From: Clostridia bacterium
GTDB lineage: Bacteria > Bacillota > Clostridia > Lachnospirales > Anaerotignaceae
Assembly (NCBI GenBank): GCA_022651385.1
Contig: JALCQR010000016.1
Coordinates: 1-35,995, forward strand
Direction: 5' to 3'
Length of the DNA stretch: 35,995 nucleotides
The position numbers were made by a program, and so were the translations under genes. Below are positions 2,022 through 34,940 of the stretch, in pieces. The notes beneath the pieces were generated by a model. That model saw nothing but the letters and a program-made list of their open reading frames with translations, was not told the DNA's origin and did not search any database. Numbering within the stretch: position 1 is the first letter of the stretch; each line of letters opens with the position of its first letter.

Positions 2022-2576
2022 ATTTGAATTTGACCATAGTGGAATGTAAATATTAAAATACCGCTTAATGCACCGTAGGCGCAAGGATTTGAATTTGACC
2101 ATAGTGGAATGTAAATGCGGTTTAAAAGGCGTTATTAAAACCGTGGCGACATTGATTTGAATTTGACCATAGTGGAATGTAAATTATTTTTAATATGGAT
2201 ACAGACGATTTTAAAACATTTGAATTTGACCATAGTGGAATGTAAATCATGGCAGTTAATGACATTCAATAGCCTATTGGCAATTTGAATTTGACCATAG
2301 TGGAATGTAAATGATGATATGAATAATGTAAAATCTGTTGATATTACATTTGAATTTGACCATAGTGGAATGTAAATTAAACACGGCGTTTACTCTTATG
2401 CTTGGGATACCATTTGAATTTGACCATAGTGGAATGTAAATTTTCGCACAATTGAGCAGATGAACTCATTTAACGCCCCGATTTGAATTTGACCATAGTG
2501 GAATGTAAATATGTATATTAAATATATAAGCGATTACGACTGTTGGATTTGAATTTGACCATAGTGGAATGTAAAT
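2022..2576 (+). CRISPR. Type I-B CRISPR array, 9 repeats and 8 spacers
   Basis: Nine identical 30-base repeats start at 2022, 2087, 2155, 2218, 2283, 2348, 2412, 2481 and 2547. Each begins ATTTGAATTTGACC and ends TGGAATGTAAAT. The eight spacers are 35, 38, 33, 35, 35, 34, 39 and 36 bases long. The last repeat is not degenerate, so repeat decay does not show which end is the trailer. The 3' end of the repeat equals that of the C. difficile type I-B repeat as I remember it, which would make the crRNA handle ATGTAAAT and the array transcribed left to right from the cas2 side. Spacer 7 matches a gene in this window. I found no convincing match in the window for the other seven. Spacer 8 has an open frame (MYIKYISDYDCW) but its source is unknown. 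Confidence 0.98.
2442..2480 (+). other. CRISPR spacer 7, self-targeting
   Basis: This is the longest spacer (39 bases). Its reverse complement equals the + strand at 5088-5125 over 38 consecutive bases; only the final spacer base (G; the genome would need T) differs. Read as codons, the spacer encodes FRTIEQMNSFNAP, the same residues as the chromosomal CYTH gene, and the mismatch is a synonymous Pro codon change (CCG against CCT). A 38-base exact match cannot be chance. Confidence 0.97.
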
Positions 2577-2806: not shown

Positions 2807-3783
2807 TTATCTCATTCTTGCCAAAGGACTGAACTTCTGATAGTTTTCTCTGATATCATCATCTGTCAGGTCAAGGTATGCTTGTTCAGTCACAGTAACG
2901 CTGCTGTGGCCAAGTATCTGTGAGAGGGTATATATATTGCCTCCGTTCATTAGAAAGCGTTTTGCAAAGTTATTACGTAACGTATGGGGTGATACATTTT
3001 CAAGACCTATTCTTGTACAATATTTTCTGAAATTCTTTTCATAAACCATATTTTGAATCGGGTTTCCTTTTTGCGTCGGAAACAGATAATCTGAACTTGT
3101 ATAAATGTCTTTGTATTTAAGCCACCTTTTTATAATTACATTCATTTCGTTAGAGAAAAAAACATACCTGTCCTTTTTGCTTTTAGTATTGTCGGCATAT
3201 AGAAGAATACAGCGTTTTATCAAATCTATATCTTCCGATTTTATTAAAAGACATTCTGATATTCTCATTCCAGTATCTATCAATAGGTTTGTTATAACAA
3301 AATCCCTGTACTCGTGGAACAAAGACAAGTTAAATGAGCGTAAGAGCATTTTAAATTGGCCGTCTGTAATAAATTCTTTTTTTGTTCTTTTATGAGACAG
3401 ATATTTTATTTTAGAGGCGGGATTAGTTTTTGTTATCTGATATTCTACACAATAAGATGAGAATGCTTTTAAGTTTCTTATGTAATTATTTATTGTGCAA
3501 GTGGATACTTTTTTACCGAAGTCTGTTCTGTTATCAGGCTTATTTTGCATTTTAGAGTTTTCGTCATATACTACGGTGTATTTTCCTCTTTCTTTTATAG
3601 ACTTTATATATTCCATAATGGTTTTATTAGTAACTTTGGAATTTTTGTTATTCCTTTTTCCATACAAAACTTTTCAAACAGCTTTAAACTTTGCTCATAA
3701 CTTTTAATTGTCTTTTTAGACAATCCCTTGGTGTTACAGTAAATTAAATAATCTTCTATCTGCATAAACATTTCAGAAAACAT
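2807..3783 (-). pseudogene. Tyrosine recombinase (phage integrase/XerCD-like), frameshifted
   Basis: Two minus-strand frames together encode a tyrosine recombinase of roughly 320 residues. The N-terminal piece (3783 to 3604) has the SAM-like core-binding start (QIEDYLIYCNTKGLSKKTIK, then SYEQSLKLFEKFC). The C-terminal piece, read to 2807, carries the catalytic set: Arg in DTGMRISECL, Lys in KSKKDRY, HTLR in SPHTLRNNFA, His in ILGHSS and the nucleophile Tyr in EQAYLDL. The frames join if one A is added to the run of five A's in the codons for ITK/NSK near 3645. The start at 3783 is preferred because AGGAGG lies 8 bases before it; an earlier in-frame ATG at 3804 would have that site inside the gene. 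The gene is probably inactive unless the A-run slips. No other phage genes are nearby. Confidence 0.8.
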
Positions 3784-3899
3784 TAAAAAAACCTCCTGAT
3801 TCATGGATAATTACTACCCAATAAATCAAAAGGTTTATAGACTTTGATAAAATATATTTATTGCCTCAGTGGGCTTAAAATCTGCAATTAAGGCTGTAA

Positions 3900-5005: not shown

Positions 5006-5464
5006 TTATGTCTTAGGAATTCCGTCAATTGAAAGAGCTGTATTTTTAAACCTTTTGTCTAAAGACACATCTTTACCAAACCATAAAGGGGCGTTAAATG
5101 AGTTCATCTGCTCAATTGTGCGAAATTCAACCTCTGTTGTAATTAATCCCTCAAGAAAGCCGTGATATATGTCAACTTCCGCTGTCAAATTATTTTCAAT
5201 GGGGATATAATATCGAGTTTTGATAACCTGTGGCGTTTCGGCTTTTGACAAAAGATGTATATATTGTTTTTCCGTAATTTCAAGCTCAAATTCCTCATGC
5301 GATATTTTTCCGCTGCCTTTCATGGTCAGGGTATATGTATTGTCCAATTTGCGTATGCGTATTGTGGGAGTAATTGAAATATAGCACTGACTTATTTCGC
5401 TTTTTTTATATTCACTTATTTCAAAGGGTATTTTTTCGGTATGGTATTTTTTTTCTATTTCCAT
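5006..5464 (-). CDS. CYTH-domain protein (triphosphate tunnel metalloenzyme family)
   Basis: The 152-residue protein has the CYTH signature ExExK at its very N terminus (MEIEKKY). It then alternates charged residues as expected for the eight-strand tunnel: RIRKLDNTYTLTMKGSG, EEFELEIT, IKTRYYIP, AEVDIYHGFLEGLITTEVEF, and FGKDVSLDKRFKN. CYTH proteins bind triphosphates with divalent metals; bacterial members are often inorganic triphosphatases or adenylate cyclases of unknown role. The short single-domain form here fits the bacterial triphosphatase-like branch, with substrate unknown. It is transcribed leftwards, divergently from the DJ-1 gene. A ribosome binding site AAAAGGAG precedes the ATG. 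Codons for residues 114-126 are the target of CRISPR spacer 7; the gene itself is intact. Confidence 0.85.
   Translation of the reverse strand: MEIEKKYHTEKIPFEISEYKKSEISQCYISITPTIRIRKLDNTYTLTMKGSGKISHEEFELEITEKQYIHLLSKAETPQVIKTRYYIPIENNLTAEVDIYHGFLEGLITTEVEFRTIEQMNSFNAPLWFGKDVSLDKRFKNTALSIDGIPKT
5088..5125 (-). other. Chromosomal protospacer matching CRISPR spacer 7
   Basis: 38 consecutive bases are identical to spacer 7 when read on the minus (coding) strand. The 5' flank on the spacer-like strand is TTGAA, so the position where a C. difficile-type CCW PAM would sit reads GAA. The 3' flank reads TTTATGG. Reading the + strand, CCATAAA precedes the other end, putting a CCA 4 bases outside the match. 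The protospacer lies fully within the CYTH gene. Confidence 0.96.
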
Positions 5465-7454: not shown

Positions 7455-8316
7455 TTGCCGCGCCTGCTATTTTTGTACTTCGTTTCATAAGTATAATGTA
7501 AAATGCAATTCCGACAATTATTAGCACTATAGATACTACCTGCGAAACTGCAATTCCGGTATCAAAAAGTTTAAGCTGGTCGGTTCTGAGACCTTCCACA
7601 AAAAATCTTATAATTCCGTATCCAATCATATAAAGTGTACCTATCTGACCGTCAAATTTTTTGTGTTTTCTTAATATTATAAGGAATATAAACAGGCACA
7701 GATTTGGAAATGACTCGTAAAGAAATGTAGGCTGAACCTGAATATATTCTGTACCGTTTACGGTTATAACATGCGCAAGCACGGAAGGGGCTATGTTGGC
7801 AACTTGGTTTTTGAGATATCTCATTGCAAAAAGTCCGTTTGTATAGCCTCCGAAAGCCTCTCGGTTAAAAAAGTTTCCCCATCTGCCGAGTATCTGGCCC
7901 AGCAATACGCTCGGAAGCACTGTATCTGCTACGAGCCAAAAAGGTATTTTTCGCCTTTTTGAAAATATAATGCCGCATACTATTCCTGTTAAAACGCCCC
8001 CGTATATGGCAAGCCCGCCTTCGCGGATTGCAAATATTTTTAAAAGGTCAGTTTTGTAATTGTCCCATGAAAATATAACATAGTAAAGCCTTGCGCCTAT
8101 TACGGAAGCAATTATTCCGAAGGAAGCCAAATCTATATAGTCCTCTTTTTTCTGGCCGCTTCTTTCGGCCTCGTGCAAAACCAAAAGCGTGGCAAGCACA
8201 ATTCCTATGCCGATTATTGCACCGTACCAATAAATGTTGAAATTGCCGATTGAAAAAAGCACACGGCTTAAATGGTAGATTTTTATCCCAATATTGGGAA
8301 ACCATATCTCAGGCAT
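7441..8316 (-). CDS. lgt: Prolipoprotein diacylglyceryl transferase
   Basis: Lgt transfers diacylglycerol from phosphatidylglycerol to the lipobox cysteine of preprolipoproteins, the first step of lipoprotein maturation in the membrane. The 291-residue product has about seven hydrophobic segments. It shows the family motifs IYWYGAIIGIGIV, GARLYYVIFSWDNY, GGLAIYGGVLTGI (with the H/Y-GG region) and the Lgt signature GRWGNFFNREAFGG. The late motif QPTFLYESFPNL is also present. GGGGGAA sits before ATG 8316. It follows the M16 pair by 21 bases and overlaps the next small gene, so it belongs to their operon. A likely substrate in this window is the PstS lipoprotein. Confidence 0.96.
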   Translation of the reverse strand: MPEIWFPNIGIKIYHLSRVLFSIGNFNIYWYGAIIGIGIVLATLLVLHEAERSGQKKEDYIDLASFGIIASVIGARLYYVIFSWDNYKTDLLKIFAIREGGLAIYGGVLTGIVCGIIFSKRRKIPFWLVADTVLPSVLLGQILGRWGNFFNREAFGGYTNGLFAMRYLKNQVANIAPSVLAHVITVNGTEYIQVQPTFLYESFPNLCLFIFLIILRKHKKFDGQIGTLYMIGYGIIRFFVEGLRTDQLKLFDTGIAVSQVVSIVLIIVGIAFYIILMKRSTKIAGAANENK

Positions 8317-8337
8317 TTAATATTCCCCCCATAAATG

Positions 8338-9591
8338 CTACTCGACAACTGAAAGAACAGCATCTTCCCTTGAAAATGCGGTTTCCAGTATATCCTCTAC
8401 ATATTCCTTTGTAATTGTTATTATTGCTTCTTCGGCATCCCACATATCCGCCTTAAAATAAGAAAGTTCTGCCTGAGCCATGCACAGTGCATCTATACTG
8501 TTAAATCCGCGCAGAAATCTCCCCAGCATCATTTTTTTAAGACGCAGAAATTCACTGTCGCTTATTCCCTTATATAGTATCCTCTCGGCTTCATCTATTA
8601 TCATGTTTGATATTAGAATTGCCTGACGGCTTTTGCCGGTTATAATGCCTGTACAAAAATCTTTTGAAAACATAAGATTCCATCCAAGAGGTTCAAAAAG
8701 CATCATTTTCATAAAAAGTTTTGAGTATAAAGCCGAACCTGTGCCGGCTATAAGCTCAAAAGCCATTCTGAAAGCATATGTGCTTTTAAGCCCCGGAGTA
8801 AAATCACGGTAATGAAAACCAAGACTGAACACCGGCTCATTTACGCCCATACGCTCCTTTATAAAATCTCCGGCACGGCGTTTTTCGTCAGACGGATAAT
8901 ACTTTATTGCTGTCGGATTTGTTGGAAAAGTTATGCTTTCAGCAATTTCTGCCACTTTTTTGGGTGATATGTCGCCTGTACAGATTATTGACATATTTGA
9001 AGCTGTATAAAAACTTTTAAAACAGTTATATAAAATTTCAGGCGTAATTTTCTCAAGGGAATTTTCTGTACCGGCGATATTAACTTTTAAAGGTTTTTTC
9101 CGGTACATAACTTTAAGCATGTTATAATAAACTCTCCAATTGGCCTGGTCATTGCACATAGCTATTTCTCTTTTGATTATTTCTCTTTCGCTTTTAATGC
9201 CTTCGTCATCGAAATATGGCTCGGATACCATTTTAAGCAGCCTTTTTAAGTTATCATAAAAATTGTTGCTGCATGAAAAATAATATGCCGTACGTCTATG
9301 GTCGGTAAAAGCATTGCAGTAAGCTCCGGATGAAGAAAATTCCGAAAAGAAACTGTGCTCTTTTTTTTCAAACATCCTGTGTTCAATAAAATGTGCCGTT
9401 CCGGAAGGTGAAAGATACATATTGCCTTCTGACGAAAAAGCTATATCCGCTGAACCGTAATCAACCACAACACATGCCTGTGATGTTTTAAACCCATTTC
9501 TTGGAATTATATAACATTTGGTACCAGATGACAATGTATAATCAAAAAATTCGGTATTGCTAAGCTCTGATTTTTTCATTTCAAGATACAT
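8338..9591 (-). CDS. ymfH: M16 family zinc peptidase, YmfH-like (active subunit)
   Basis: The 417-residue protein carries the inverted zinc motif HxxEH in SGTAHFIEHRMFEKKEHSFF (His at about 67 and 71, Glu at about 70). The distal Glu lies in KSEREIIKREIAM, and the AFTDHRRTAYYF substrate region follows. These define an active M16 (pitrilysin/processing peptidase) subunit. The start is ATG 9591 because AAGGAG lies 8 bases before it; GTG 9600, three codons earlier, would abut that site. The next upstream gene encodes a second M16 protein without the zinc motif, the usual YmfF/YmfH arrangement in Firmicutes. NCBI naming links these to EF-P modification (as YfmF/YfmH), but their true substrate is unknown. 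Confidence 0.9.
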   Translation of the reverse strand: MYLEMKKSELSNTEFFDYTLSSGTKCYIIPRNGFKTSQACVVVDYGSADIAFSSEGNMYLSPSGTAHFIEHRMFEKKEHSFFSEFSSSGAYCNAFTDHRRTAYYFSCSNNFYDNLKRLLKMVSEPYFDDEGIKSEREIIKREIAMCNDQANWRVYYNMLKVMYRKKPLKVNIAGTENSLEKITPEILYNCFKSFYTASNMSIICTGDISPKKVAEIAESITFPTNPTAIKYYPSDEKRRAGDFIKERMGVNEPVFSLGFHYRDFTPGLKSTYAFRMAFELIAGTGSALYSKLFMKMMLFEPLGWNLMFSKDFCTGIITGKSRQAILISNMIIDEAERILYKGISDSEFLRLKKMMLGRFLRGFNSIDALCMAQAELSYFKADMWDAEEAIITITKEYVEDILETAFSREDAVLSVVE

Positions 9592-9606
9592 CTGTTTCAC
9601 TCCTTT

Positions 9607-10854
9607 TTATCTGCCTTCGAGAAAAAAAGTAAGACGTTTTTTTACATTTGAGGCTGTTTGAGATATTTTGTTTTTAGGTATATCATCTATATTTTTAACA
9701 AAAGACTCGGGACTTTCGTTTAAGTCCATAATGCGGCAGGCGTACAAAAATCCGCTCAAGCCGTCCATACTGTCTGAAAGTGTAAGATAATGCTGTGAAA
9801 GCGAGTTTTTGGCTTTTTCCACAATGTCGTCCGATAAACTGCCGGACATGATATCGGATAAAGTTTTGTCAATAGCTTCTTCGGTTTTTAAAAACTCACT
9901 TTTTTCTATGCCGCACTGTATAATAAATGCCGAGCTGTTTATATAAAGTTTTGAGGATATGCTGTAGCAGAGGCCTTTTTCTTCACGGACATTTTTAAAA
10001 AGCATAGAATCGGAACAGCCTCCAAGAATTTCATTAAACAGCAGCATACTATAAATGTCAGCATTTGAAAAAGTATATCCTATGCAAAGCTGGCTTTGTT
10101 CCATATCGCTTTTTTTGACTATGCTTTTGCTTTCATCACTTGAAAATTCAAGGTTTTCCCAAGATGAAATTTTACTTTGTGTTCCCGGAAATATAAAGTT
10201 TTTAAGAAATATTTCCTTAACTTTTTTTTCATCATGCGGCCCGGAATAATATATATCGCATGGGAATGAGCATACGGTTCTTTTGTAAAAATTATAAAGA
10301 GATGAGCTTGTTATTTCTTTTATTTCGTTTTCATATCCCAAAGGGCACATGCCGAATGCGGAGTTCTTTTTTGAGCATTTTGATATTTCTTCCTCACATC
10401 GGCTTAAAGCGTAAAAAGCTTTGTCATCATTTGCGGTACGAAGATTTTTAACAGCAGCATTTTTGCTTGAAGCTGTGAGCTTTTCGGAGAACACGCCGTT
10501 TTTTACACATGGGTCAAAAAGCACACAGCATATAAATTTGACTGCCTTTTGAAGCTCGCTTATGCCTCCGGAAAATTCAAAATACAGTGCCAGTACCTGC
10601 GACGAGCCTTTTTTGAAAGTATAAATATCAAACACAGCGCCGTACATCTCCTGCAATCGGCGATTTATTGAGCTTACGGAAGGAAAACGATTGCAGCCGC
10701 TTTTAAGCGCGTTTGAAAGCACGTTCATTTTTGACGTGCATTTTTGAGCTGAGGGTACAGTAAAAAAAAGTGAAATGGATGATGTTGTAAATTTATCAGT
10801 CTTTAATATATTAAGGGTATAAGAATTATTGAAAAAAGTTTTTAAGCCGTCCAT
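9607..10854 (-). CDS. ymfF: M16 family protein, YmfF-like (zinc-free subunit)
   Basis: The 415-residue product has the M16 fold pattern: SSISLFFTVPSA, SSINRRLQEMYGAVFDIYTF, and late in the protein LFNEILGGCSDSMLFKNVRE followed by EKGLCYSISSKLYI. The position of the zinc motif reads NALKSGCNRF, so HxxEH is absent. Such catalytically dead members pair with an active subunit, here the adjacent YmfH-like protein 15 bases downstream. The LxGxxxSxLFxxVREExGLxYSISS motif is typical of the second M16 domain. AAGGAGAGG precedes the ATG. The operon then runs on into lgt. Confidence 0.88.
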   Translation of the reverse strand: MDGLKTFFNNSYTLNILKTDKFTTSSISLFFTVPSAQKCTSKMNVLSNALKSGCNRFPSVSSINRRLQEMYGAVFDIYTFKKGSSQVLALYFEFSGGISELQKAVKFICCVLFDPCVKNGVFSEKLTASSKNAAVKNLRTANDDKAFYALSRCEEEISKCSKKNSAFGMCPLGYENEIKEITSSSLYNFYKRTVCSFPCDIYYSGPHDEKKVKEIFLKNFIFPGTQSKISSWENLEFSSDESKSIVKKSDMEQSQLCIGYTFSNADIYSMLLFNEILGGCSDSMLFKNVREEKGLCYSISSKLYINSSAFIIQCGIEKSEFLKTEEAIDKTLSDIMSGSLSDDIVEKAKNSLSQHYLTLSDSMDGLSGFLYACRIMDLNESPESFVKNIDDIPKNKISQTASNVKKRLTFFLEGR

Positions 10855-11057
10855 AAAAAAACCACCTCTCCTTTTGAGATAGTATGGTTATTGAAGGCGG
10901 AAAAAATACCAAAAAAATGACAGTTCTAAAATGATATAAGGCTGCAGAATATAAATGTTTTTGTTTTTTACAGTTTCTTAAAAGCAGCAGTTTCAAAAAG
11001 CAATGCAGTACAACTACAAGTTTTGTTTTACAAAGCTTAAATACATTCAGAAAAATA

Positions 11058-11080
11058 GGGCGCAGACAAAGTCTACACCC
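11058..11080 (-). terminator. Rho-independent terminator after the DUF4364 gene
   Basis: On the minus strand GGTGTAGAC pairs with GTCTGCGCC (two G-U pairs) around a TTT loop and is followed by CTATTTTTC. It lies 32 bases past the DUF4364 stop. The remaining gap to ymfF (11081-11111 and 10855-11057) holds no gene that I can see; the ymfF promoter must be there. Confidence 0.7.
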
Positions 11081-11111
11081 TAAAAAGTCTCAAAATACTA
11101 TCTAAAAAAAT

Positions 11112-11639
11112 TTATTCTTTTATTATTGCCTGATATATTGTTGAACAGATATTATTTATGTTTCTTTTCCAGTTATTACATATAAGCTGAGCCTGGCTTT
11201 TTGTGGGAACAACCACGTCAAGTTCCATAATTTGATTTCCGTCAAGGCCGCATACGGCGCATTTTACAAGATATTCGCCGTTTATTTCAGGAAAATAATT
11301 TGCTGAAGTTTCATATTCGCTTCTTATACGCTGTTTGTTGTTTAGTATATATTCGTTGGCTGCGCTTTTAAGCCACTCTGTTATGCGGTTGTGGAAAAGA
11401 CTGAGCACACCGGAGCCCTCATGAGTTATACTGTATCTCGTTGTGCTTTTTTCGTTAAATGCTTCTATGTATCCTGAGTCTGTCAGCTGTGACAGGGCCT
11501 GCTGTACGTTTATATAGTCCATTATATTTCTCTCCATGGCAAATTGGCTGATGTCATTATTTGAAAGAGCCACATCCATTTTGTCAAGCAAATATAATAT
11601 TATCAATTTATTTTCAGCCAGCTTATTATCATCAGCCAC
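11112..11639 (-). CDS. DUF4364 family protein (winged-helix-like)
   Basis: From GTG 11639 the protein is 175 residues: MADDNKLAENKLIILYLLDK then MDVALSNNDISQFAMERNIM. This is the characteristic start of the DUF4364 family, with a winged-helix-like N-terminal region (NDISQFAM, VQQALSQLTDSGYIEAF, TRYSITHEGSGVL). DUF4364 proteins are common in Clostridia and function is unproven; a transcriptional regulator is a reasonable guess. I chose GTG 11639 because GGGAGG lies 8 bases upstream; an in-frame ATG at 11666 would place this site inside the gene. It is followed by its own terminator. Confidence 0.85.
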   Translation of the reverse strand: MADDNKLAENKLIILYLLDKMDVALSNNDISQFAMERNIMDYINVQQALSQLTDSGYIEAFNEKSTTRYSITHEGSGVLSLFHNRITEWLKSAANEYILNNKQRIRSEYETSANYFPEINGEYLVKCAVCGLDGNQIMELDVVVPTKSQAQLICNNWKRNINNICSTIYQAIIKE

Positions 11640-11768
11640 TTTCTTTTCCTCCCCCATAAAGCGCATTCTGTATTATACAATAAATTTTACCATTTCTCAA
11701 TAAATTTTGACATATTTTTTTAATAATTATATACTTTTATATTTATGTTTTATCTGAACCGGCTTTTT

Positions 11769-12689
11769 TTATTTTTTACATAAACTTCCCTGCCTGAAAG
11801 ACGTTTCAGACATTCTTTTGTGTATCGAATTTAATACATCTCTTTTGTTAAGACTCCACTTGGGGGCTATGAGCAAGTCTTTTGGTCCGTCTCCGGTAAG
11901 ACGGTGTATCACTATATTTTCGGGAACATACGAAAGAGCTGTTAAAACAAGGTCAATGTATTCATCTTTTTCAAGAATATGAAAATGTGTCGAGTTATAT
12001 ATTTCTTCAAGGGGAGTGTCTTTAAGCACATGAAGAAGCTGTATCTTTATTCCTTTTATTTCGCATGACACGGCATATTTTACAGAATTTACCATATCGT
12101 CCATATTTTCTCCCGGAAGGCCGAAAATTATATGACAAACTGTGTCAAGACCTGCTTCATTAAGCAATTTTACAGCTTTTTTAAATACTTCGTTTTTGTA
12201 GCCTCTGTTTATAAAATCAGCTGTTTTTTCATTTGATGTTTGAAGCCCCAACTCGACACATACGTAACTTTTTTGAGAAAAATCAGACAAAAGTTTTATT
12301 ACTTTTTCATCAATACAATCGGGCCTTGTGGCTATTGAAATACCCTCAATGCCTTTACATGACAAAGCCTCCGTATATTTTTTACGCAAAACTTCTATTG
12401 GGGCGTAAGTATTTGTAAATGCCTGAAAATACGCAATAAAACCACAATTTTGCCATTTTTTGCTGATAAGATTTTTTTGCTGTTCTATTTGCTGTGTTAT
12501 AGACAGTTGTCTTTCACCTGCAAAATCACCGCTTCCTTTTGCACTGCAAAAAATACATCCTTTTGCACTGATTTTTCCAGTGCGATTAGGGCATGAAAAG
12601 CCTGCATCAAGTGAAAGTTTTACCATTTTTTTGCCGAACAAACTGCGGTAATAATCATTGAGAGAGTTGTAGAGGCCCTGATTTTTCAA
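11769..12689 (-). CDS. TIGR01212-type radical SAM protein (YtqA-like)
   Basis: The 306-residue protein has the radical SAM cluster cysteines in AGFSCPNRTGKISAKGCIFC: Cys33, Cys45 and Cys48, with the long first gap typical of the Elp3-like/TIGR01212 subfamily. Later motifs fit the TIM barrel: EGISIATRPDCIDEKVIKLL, YVCVELGLQTSNEKTADFIN, and HIIFGLPGENMDDMVNSVKY. TIGR01212 proteins are widespread in Firmicutes and the reaction is unknown. The start is TTG 12689, with AAGGATG 8 bases before it; there is no better ATG in frame. A 28-bp palindrome lies 18 bases upstream of the start, at the probable promoter, so expression may be controlled by a dimeric regulator. Confidence 0.9.
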   Translation of the reverse strand: MKNQGLYNSLNDYYRSLFGKKMVKLSLDAGFSCPNRTGKISAKGCIFCSAKGSGDFAGERQLSITQQIEQQKNLISKKWQNCGFIAYFQAFTNTYAPIEVLRKKYTEALSCKGIEGISIATRPDCIDEKVIKLLSDFSQKSYVCVELGLQTSNEKTADFINRGYKNEVFKKAVKLLNEAGLDTVCHIIFGLPGENMDDMVNSVKYAVSCEIKGIKIQLLHVLKDTPLEEIYNSTHFHILEKDEYIDLVLTALSYVPENIVIHRLTGDGPKDLLIAPKWSLNKRDVLNSIHKRMSETSFRQGSLCKK

Positions 12690-34238: not shown

Positions 34239-34940
34239 TTACCAGCGGTCTGTCCAGCCGGTTGCGCTTTCCTGATTAACAAATGGTTCAGGAATTGCGG
34301 CGCCGATTTCGATTTCTTTCCGTATTGCGGCCGAGACATCAGGTATAGTGTCAGAACTGTAGGCGGCAAAAGCTGCGCTGTCCATCAAAACAGCGCCTAT
34401 TCGCTCCATATCCTCCAGGTTGACACGCTGGATTTCCTCTGTTTGAGAGGAACAGCAATCTGTCAGCACCACGGCGTTGTACTCCAGCGCAATGGCATCG
34501 TAACAGGTCGTGCGTATGCAGTTGGGAGTTGTGGTGCCCGCCAGAATCACTGTCCGGATGTCCAGCCGCCGCAGAATCAGGTCAAGCTCCGTACCAAAAA
34601 AAGCACTCCAGCGTGGTTTGATAATGGTGTAGTCCCCGGGGCGGGGACGCAGAGACTCAGGAGCCTGAGCACTGTTAGGGCCGGCGGAGGCTGGGGTGCA
34701 AGCCCGGTCTTTGGCCTTCCATCCGGCATAGCGGGTCAGCTCCACATCGCTACCGTCCGAGCGGTAGATACGTTTTACAAAGAAAATGGGAATACCCTTG
34801 CTCCGTGCCACCTCCAGCGTGCGGGCACAGGCGGGAACGGTGGCAAGAGCGCCATGGATACAAAGTCCGCCTGCCGGATCCACAAATCCGTTTTCCATGT
34901 CTATCAGCAGCAGAGCGGAACGGGTTGGATTGGAATGCAT
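34239..34940 (-). CDS. Isochorismatase-family cysteine hydrolase, foreign base composition
   Basis: The 233-residue protein has the isochorismatase/nicotinamidase fold with the catalytic triad Asp14 in ALLLIDMENGFVDPAGG, Lys108 in YTIIKPRWSAFFGTELD and Cys141 in ILAGTTTPNCIRTTCYDA, plus the Thr-Thr/cis-peptide signature. Substrates in the family range from isochorismate and nicotinamide to N-carbamoyl compounds; nothing here decides. GAGAGAGG precedes the ATG. The codon use is strikingly GC-rich (runs of GCC, CGG, CTC, GGC), unlike all neighbours, and the gene sits between copies of the intergenic repeat. That points to recent horizontal gain. The 545-base gap behind its start holds an A+T-rich promoter region, the hairpin at 35175-35209, nothing I recognise in 35210-35422, and the marR promoter. 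Confidence 0.88.
   Translation of the reverse strand: MHSNPTRSALLLIDMENGFVDPAGGLCIHGALATVPACARTLEVARSKGIPIFFVKRIYRSDGSDVELTRYAGWKAKDRACTPASAGPNSAQAPESLRPRPGDYTIIKPRWSAFFGTELDLILRRLDIRTVILAGTTTPNCIRTTCYDAIALEYNAVVLTDCCSSQTEEIQRVNLEDMERIGAVLMDSAAFAAYSSDTIPDVSAAIRKEIEIGAAIPEPFVNQESATGWTDRW

Follow-up and report, generated by a model that had tools for sequence, protein, structure and literature searches.

A self-matching spacer beside its source gene in a clostridial type I-B CRISPR array, most likely harmless through the apparent absence of a PAM

Introduction

Spacers that match the chromosome of their own host are an established by-product of CRISPR adaptation. They make up 0.4% of spacers; of 330 CRISPR-bearing prokaryotes, 18% have them, as do about 7% of the genomes of a later database, according to the figures collected in PMC6990116. 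The natural self-targeting spacers covered there (Stern 2010, reviewed in PMC6990116) are described as non-effective for lack of a protospacer-adjacent motif (PAM). The type I-B system of Clostridioides difficile, with a measured PAM of YCN, provides the closest experimental case (PMC8406132). Almost all of its new spacers are reported to be 34–40 bp long, and those derived from the chromosome to have no PAM, with less than 10% showing CCN or TCN. The authors of that study explain the lack of PAMs among chromosomal spacers by the loss of the cells that had acquired functional ones.

The regions from which self spacers are drawn differ between the systems described. In Escherichia coli, Pyrococcus furiosus, and Haloferax volcanii, active CRISPR loci are described as hotspots of acquisition (PMC8406132). 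Acquisition near the CRISPR locus of E. coli is also given in PMC12539621, and one hotspot of this species is described upstream of CRISPR-1 (PMC10011333). In C. difficile, the preferred chromosomal regions do not include the arrays but are named as terC and Tn1549-like loci (PMC8406132), and those of H. volcanii are mainly transposase genes (PMC7521656). The latter source also describes primed adaptation, which is set off by a mismatched crRNA or by a non-functional PAM.

Here, we analyse a type I-B array from a clostridial genome in which one spacer matches a gene 2.5 kb away. The case resembles the reported C. difficile system in its cas1, cas2, and cas4 genes, its 34–40 bp spacers, the chromosomal source of the spacer, and the absence of a match to a known PAM; it differs in that the C. 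difficile spacers were obtained after overexpression of Cas1-Cas2-Cas4, whereas ours is a fixed spacer of a natural array with an interrupted cas4 (PMC8406132). It shares with the hotspots of E. coli type I-E, P. furiosus, and H. volcanii a source lying beside the CRISPR locus (PMC8406132, PMC10011333, PMC12539621), but those reports concern populations with many events and ours a single event on the trailer side. From the natural self-targeting spacers reviewed in PMC6990116 it shows no difference in kind. A search of the open literature showed, among the titles and beginnings of abstracts listed, no natural type I-B case of exactly this form. We regard the spacer as an ordinary, if fresh, example of a known autoimmune accident, explicable by known mechanisms. 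Its interest is that of a clean natural instance, contained in one contig, of a prediction from adaptation experiments: that the self-spacers which survive are PAM-less and that some of them come from next to the array.

Results

The array and its leader side

The genome comprises 2,609,557 bases in 19 contigs, with a completeness of 99.88. The window, i.e., the whole stretch of DNA analysed, is the opening 35,995 bases of contig C16, position 1 being the start of the contig. The CRISPR array (2022–2576, + strand) contains nine identical repeats of 30 nt (ATTTGAATTTGACCATAGTGGAATGTAAAT) and eight spacers of 35, 38, 33, 35, 35, 34, 39, and 36 nt. The interval from cas2 to the first repeat (1842–2021, +) is AT-rich, and we presume from its position and composition that it is the leader. 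It contains TTGACA-like boxes at 1883 and 1969, and a promoter scan of positions 1500–2900 gave 16 sites, against 9.2 (sd 3.0) in shuffled sequences; neither result is proof of function. The leader end of the array would be the side that carries cas1-cas2 and the AT-rich stretch. Counted from this side, as it also was in the preliminary description of this DNA, the self-matching spacer is the seventh.

A type I-B locus interrupted in cas4

The adaptation genes precede the presumed leader. A cas1 gene of type I-B (546–1550, +) scores 433.1 bits with TIGR03641 (cut-off 304.1), and cas2 (1563–1841, +), which matches the Cas2b profile, scores 47.1 bits with TIGR01573 (cut-off 24.5). Upstream of them is the 3′ part of cas4 (191–542, +). 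It covers positions 45–160 of the 161 of the Cas4b profile, and its score with TIGR00372 (63.6 bits) is just below the cut-off of 65. The gene is split by an insertion, one end of which occupies positions 1–190 (−) and includes the start of a transposase gene (3–125, −) with a weak match to HTH_Tnp_1 (E = 0.0036, below the cut-off). We take this element to be IS3-like from this match, its terminal inverted repeats, and its target duplication.

The 5′ part of cas4 is on contig C17 (110–255, −), where 48 codons are followed by the other end of the element (1–109). The two ends are imperfect inverted repeats, and the target duplication AAG is present on both flanks. When the two parts of cas4 are joined with a single AAG, they form one frame of 164 codons. 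From the paired inverted repeats, the duplication, and the common frame, we infer that contigs C17 and C16 once formed a single operon and that the element interrupts its cas4. The break is the only one seen in the locus. It concerns the fidelity of adaptation, not the subtype of the locus, and the spacers may well have been in place before the element inserted.

The element end occurs once in the genome at an E-value of 0.001 or less, despite the contig break at this place, and the inner part of the element is absent from the stretches of sequence examined. The break in the assembly is left unexplained by this single occurrence, the window lies at a contig end, and its link to contig C17 is deduced; these points would fit an assembly artefact. 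Against it, the array and the sequence matched by its spacer are on one contig, each in a single copy, and the two sides of cas4 fit together in repeats, duplication, and frame. We consider an artefact extremely improbable.

On contig C17, the operon runs from cas6 through cas8b, cas7 (a Cst2/DevR member), and cas5 to cas3, behind which the 5′ part of cas4 begins. Each of the five interference genes is an open frame with a PADLOC type I-B match. The matches of cas3, cas6, cas7, and cas8b extend over nearly the whole profiles, and that of cas5 over 194 of 217 positions. Cas3 retains its HD, GSGKT, DEIQ, and QRLGR motifs. The NCBIfam cut-offs are exceeded by cas7 and by cas3 (core and HD), whereas the type I-B Cas5 model (93.6 vs 96.7) and cas6 (55 vs 58.65) stay under theirs, and cas8b has no NCBIfam match. 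With Pfam, cas5, cas6, cas7, cas8b (CXXC domain), and the Cas3 helicase are over the cut-offs, and the Cas3 HD model just misses it (22.2 vs 23.1). A search with TIGR01587 located cas3 near the start of the contig; a genome search with the Pfam Cas7 profile PF05107 gave no match, PF05107 representing the wrong Cas7 family for a locus with Cst2/DevR. Judged by these profiles, the locus can be classed as a type I-B CRISPR-Cas system.

The preliminary description had listed missing interference genes among the possible reasons for tolerance of the self-match, and had suggested looking for cas3, cas5, cas7, and cas8 to the left of the window. All of them are there, upstream of the window across the presumed join and with open frames, as part of the full cas6-cas8b-cas7-cas5-cas3 set, and we reject this explanation. 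On the same contig (C17, L054), a gene resembling the lactate-racemase type and a TRAP-type transporter set, both named from their translations, adjoin the cas operon (7909–12214, −).

Spacer 7 matches a neighbouring gene

The first 38 bases of spacer 7 (2442–2480, +), i.e., positions 2442–2479, are identical at 38 of 38 positions to the minus strand of 5088–5125, which corresponds to nt 340–377 of a 459-nt gene encoding a CYTH-type protein. The 39th base (2480) is G, in contrast to a T in the coding strand (position 5087, minus strand). The difference is one between CCT and CCG, both encoding Pro, and falls on the third codon position, so that it is synonymous. This reproduces the match as first described, with 38 consecutive identities and a single, synonymous mismatch at the last base. 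A random 38-mer would match 2.61 Mb, on both strands, with a probability of about 7e-17, which excludes a chance match.

The target is in the same genome and outside any array, with no copy of the repeat at 5088–5125. Array and target are on the same contig, and each is present once in the genome. The gap from the end of the array to the target is 2512 nt (2645.5 from centre to centre). In a whole-genome search (19 contigs), the other seven spacers gave no convincing match, the next best having an E-value of 0.10. The length of spacer 7 was considered as an anomaly and dismissed, since 13 of 238 related spacers have at least 39 nt.

The source gene and the origin of the spacer DNA

The gene matched by spacer 7 (5006–5464, −) encodes 152 aa. 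The protein has PDB relatives 3typ and 2fbl and no Pfam or NCBIfam match at 0.001; several of its relatives on plasmids are annotated as 'CYTH domain-containing protein'. The gene is matched in 52 of the 58 genomes of the family, own genome included. We examined 22 relative loci, most of them with only 1.5 kb of flank and some perhaps from one species (e.g., L029 and L031). A DJ-1 gene adjoins the CYTH gene in all 22, and spo0A is on its other side in 16. The gene is evidently part of the chromosomal core, in a conserved block. A self-match directed at a prophage, with the target in a mobile element, was rejected on this conserved gene order. Between the array and spo0A, the window contains a gene for a tyrosine recombinase of the phage integrase family (XerA/XerC/XerD-like; 2807–3790, −). 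It seems frameshifted, because the N-terminal part (from about 3790) and positions 3667–2807 are in different frames.

We compared the spacer with 34 loci of relatives, including the 22 CYTH loci, in a set without other genomes of the genus. The best 38-mer had mismatches at 16 of 38 positions, equal to the best of a reversed-query control. Since the relatives' loci are no better than the control, the DNA of the site is not conserved among them, and the donor would be the same species or a very near one. This agrees with the earlier proposal that the spacer came from this chromosome or from that of a very close relative.

Searches among mobile elements gave little. The whole array had only weak matches to phages (39 records; best E-value of 0.2 among the 30 listed) and to plasmids (13 records; best E-value of 0.5). 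Viral contigs contained no exact match to seeds of 23 or 24 nt, one each from spacers 1, 2, 4, 6, and 7 (23 nt for spacer 7). Relatives of the CYTH protein, on 39 phage and 57 plasmid records, were all less than 60% identical. These results bear on the possibility that DNA of a sister strain entered the cell and was the source, the last base of the spacer being the allele of that strain. A single mismatch that is synonymous would be expected in this case, and a comparison set without other genomes of the genus leaves room for such a donor. However, chance must then have placed the strain difference at the very end of the 39 bases, the 2.5 kb between array and target are not explained by a foreign donor, and the phage and plasmid records and viral contigs revealed no mobile carrier. 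We find a sister-strain donor unlikely.

The last base of spacer 7

The synonymous nature of the mismatch carries little information, because the mismatch concerns the very last base of the spacer and could come from an imprecise junction at integration at least as readily as from a mutation. We considered whether this base is a part of the repeat. This is not supported by the related arrays, whose repeats share this register, have 30 nt (31 in one array, an apparent 29 in another), and are preceded by G in 48 of 253 copies (19%). This count covers 10 of the 12 regions, from eight of the nine genomes, and excludes L076 and L077, whose consensus repeats of 26 and 29 nt are in another register.

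In the array studied here, G precedes five of the nine repeats, the first one included. The excess has a probability of about 0.016 and was noticed post hoc. The final bases of the eight spacers, at 2086, 2154, 2217, 2282, 2347, 2411, 2480, and 2546, are G, G, C, A, C, C, G, and G, i.e., never T despite the AT-rich DNA, and related arrays have A or T at this place in 163 of 253 cases. The odd base most likely arose at the junction or through a single change afterwards. We lean, short of proof, towards integration having slipped by one base into the leader, since G also precedes the first repeat, and a mutation must strike by chance the last of 39 bases.

The flank of the target and the tolerance of the match

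The PAM position of the protospacer (5126–5128, −) reads GAA in the sense of the crRNA, on the 5′ flank. It matches none of the 11 type I-B PAMs given in the table of PMC8482600, nor the YCN of C. difficile, nor any of seven motifs of H. volcanii quoted in PMC8406132. The missing YCN is weak evidence alone, as it is expected at around 7/8 of random sites anyway. Read in the reverse sense over 39 nt, the target is flanked by TAA. This is among the seven motifs of H. volcanii, and it is relevant only if the array runs in the opposite direction. If the system has the kind of PAM requirement known from C. difficile and from the survey of type I-B arrays, spacer 7 is most likely harmless through the absence of a PAM. 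It looks like a PAM-less survivor of the kind described in C. difficile. A wrong PAM was among the earlier explanations of tolerance, and the GAA flank fits it, as judged by the PAMs of other type I-B systems. The accompanying statement that the spacer targets its own chromosome stands as far as the sequence match goes; the word 'targets' is probably too strong for a match with no PAM in view.

The array gives no sign of self-priming: none of the six leader-proximal spacers (1–6) convincingly matches the chromosome. From this and the GAA flank, spacer 7 appears inert. The target itself is unchanged over the 38 nt.

We searched related arrays for further information on the PAM. Among 392 genomes of the order, the array matches 54 at E-values of at most 0.01, its own included, and in part through related arrays. 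In 20 of the listed places outside arrays, the best spacer match, to AT-rich DNA, had 29 of 35 identities (spacer 5), and the next had 28 of 35. A comparison with phages, which took in six of the 12 regions with related arrays (three only partly), gave one weak match and otherwise none of use for a PAM. The spacer concerned (L072, 1656–1690) matches Fusobacterium phage JD-Fnp4 (ON464764.1, 60187–60221) at 32 of 35 positions (E = 5e-3), over exactly the full length of the spacer, and the match is preceded by GTTAA, which is not of the YCN type. The phage stretch resembles a ribosome site with a start codon, for which reason the match may be due to chance; otherwise, it may hint that systems with this repeat family use a PAM resembling TAA. 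We take the flank as a warning against the PAM-less reading of spacer 7.

Other phage records touch the related arrays. Two of Listeria phages and two of faecal phages match the flanks of related type I-B arrays outside the repeats (L072, 180–534; L069, 2079–2433; L075, 196–461 and 6403–6690). A match to a repeat-spacer-repeat stretch (L072, 1295–1392) comes from phiCDKH02, a phage of C. difficile, as would be expected if this phage had an array of similar repeats.

Spacer 7 might also be capable of interference in a system that is silenced by a lack of expression, a point defect, or an anti-CRISPR, or that uses another PAM and is tolerated through repair or low activity. Expression is unreadable from the sequence, the system's own PAM is not derivable from the spacer matches, an anti-CRISPR of the C. 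difficile type I-B system has been published, and the GTTAA flank raised the standing of this explanation. Yet all five interference genes are open, with the profile coverage given above, the motifs of Cas3 are kept, and an absent PAM would make silencing unnecessary. We judge it distinctly unlikely. The supposed paradox of a self-match in such a cell is softened: the interference genes are present, yet no anti-CRISPR is needed to explain its survival.

A type III system sharing the array would act independently of a PAM. A search confined to Csm1 gave two weak matches, far below the cut-off, and the crRNA would have the sense of the transcript; on these grounds we set this candidate aside. 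The crRNA of spacer 7 is predicted to have the same sense as the CYTH mRNA, which makes pairing between them impossible, and this also counts against a regulation of the CYTH gene by a crRNA that binds without cutting. A long and perfect match to a chromosomal gene could suggest such a role, but the site is late in the gene, has no known PAM, and is matched by a spacer from an array whose repeats are identical and regular. Regulation of the gene in this way is highly improbable.

Capture from the neighbourhood of the array

We favour, as the probable history of spacer 7, a naive capture of a fragment of the neighbouring CYTH gene, which persisted because its protospacer had no PAM. Free DNA ends near the array would supply the fragment to Cas1-Cas2, and it would be integrated as an ordinary spacer. 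It would then persist because, with GAA at the PAM position, its crRNA would neither cut nor prime against the chromosome.

If source sites were drawn uniformly from the genome, the probability of one lying within 2.7 kb of the array would be about 0.002. The nearness accords with the reported hotspots, yet a single event is inseparable from luck, and the target lies on the trailer side of the array, unlike the E. coli hotspot. The free ends could alternatively derive from an element, as the tyrosine recombinase gene is located between array and target.

The interrupted cas4 suggests another cause: once the gene was cut by the element, the DNA taken up by Cas1-Cas2 would no longer have been selected for a PAM, with spacer 7 as a product of this. 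The AAG duplication on both sides of the element attests to the insertion. The C. difficile study credits Cas4 with defining the PAM and the orientation of spacers, and raises the possibility that Cas1-Cas2, when Cas4 is lacking, are toxic because they acquire self DNA indiscriminately (PMC8406132). The rest of the array speaks against Cas4 loss as the cause. With no convincing chromosomal match among spacers 1–6, it is unlike an array filled from its own genome after the loss, and the 39 nt of spacer 7 are within the range of its relatives. Moreover, PAM-less self spacers of C. difficile are reported with Cas4 present (PMC8406132). Loss of Cas4 is thus an unlikely origin of the spacer. We find equally little reason to believe that the locus documents PAM-blind self-capture beside the array in a wild bacterium, made possible when an insertion sequence knocked out the cas4 gene of a type I-B system complete in other respects. 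Isolates with and without the insertion, if they exist, could show the effect of Cas4 loss on the natural choice of spacers.

Farther along the window, an isochorismatase-family gene (34239–34940, −) is in a stretch of about 55% G+C, against 37% G+C for the window, and was perhaps acquired recently.
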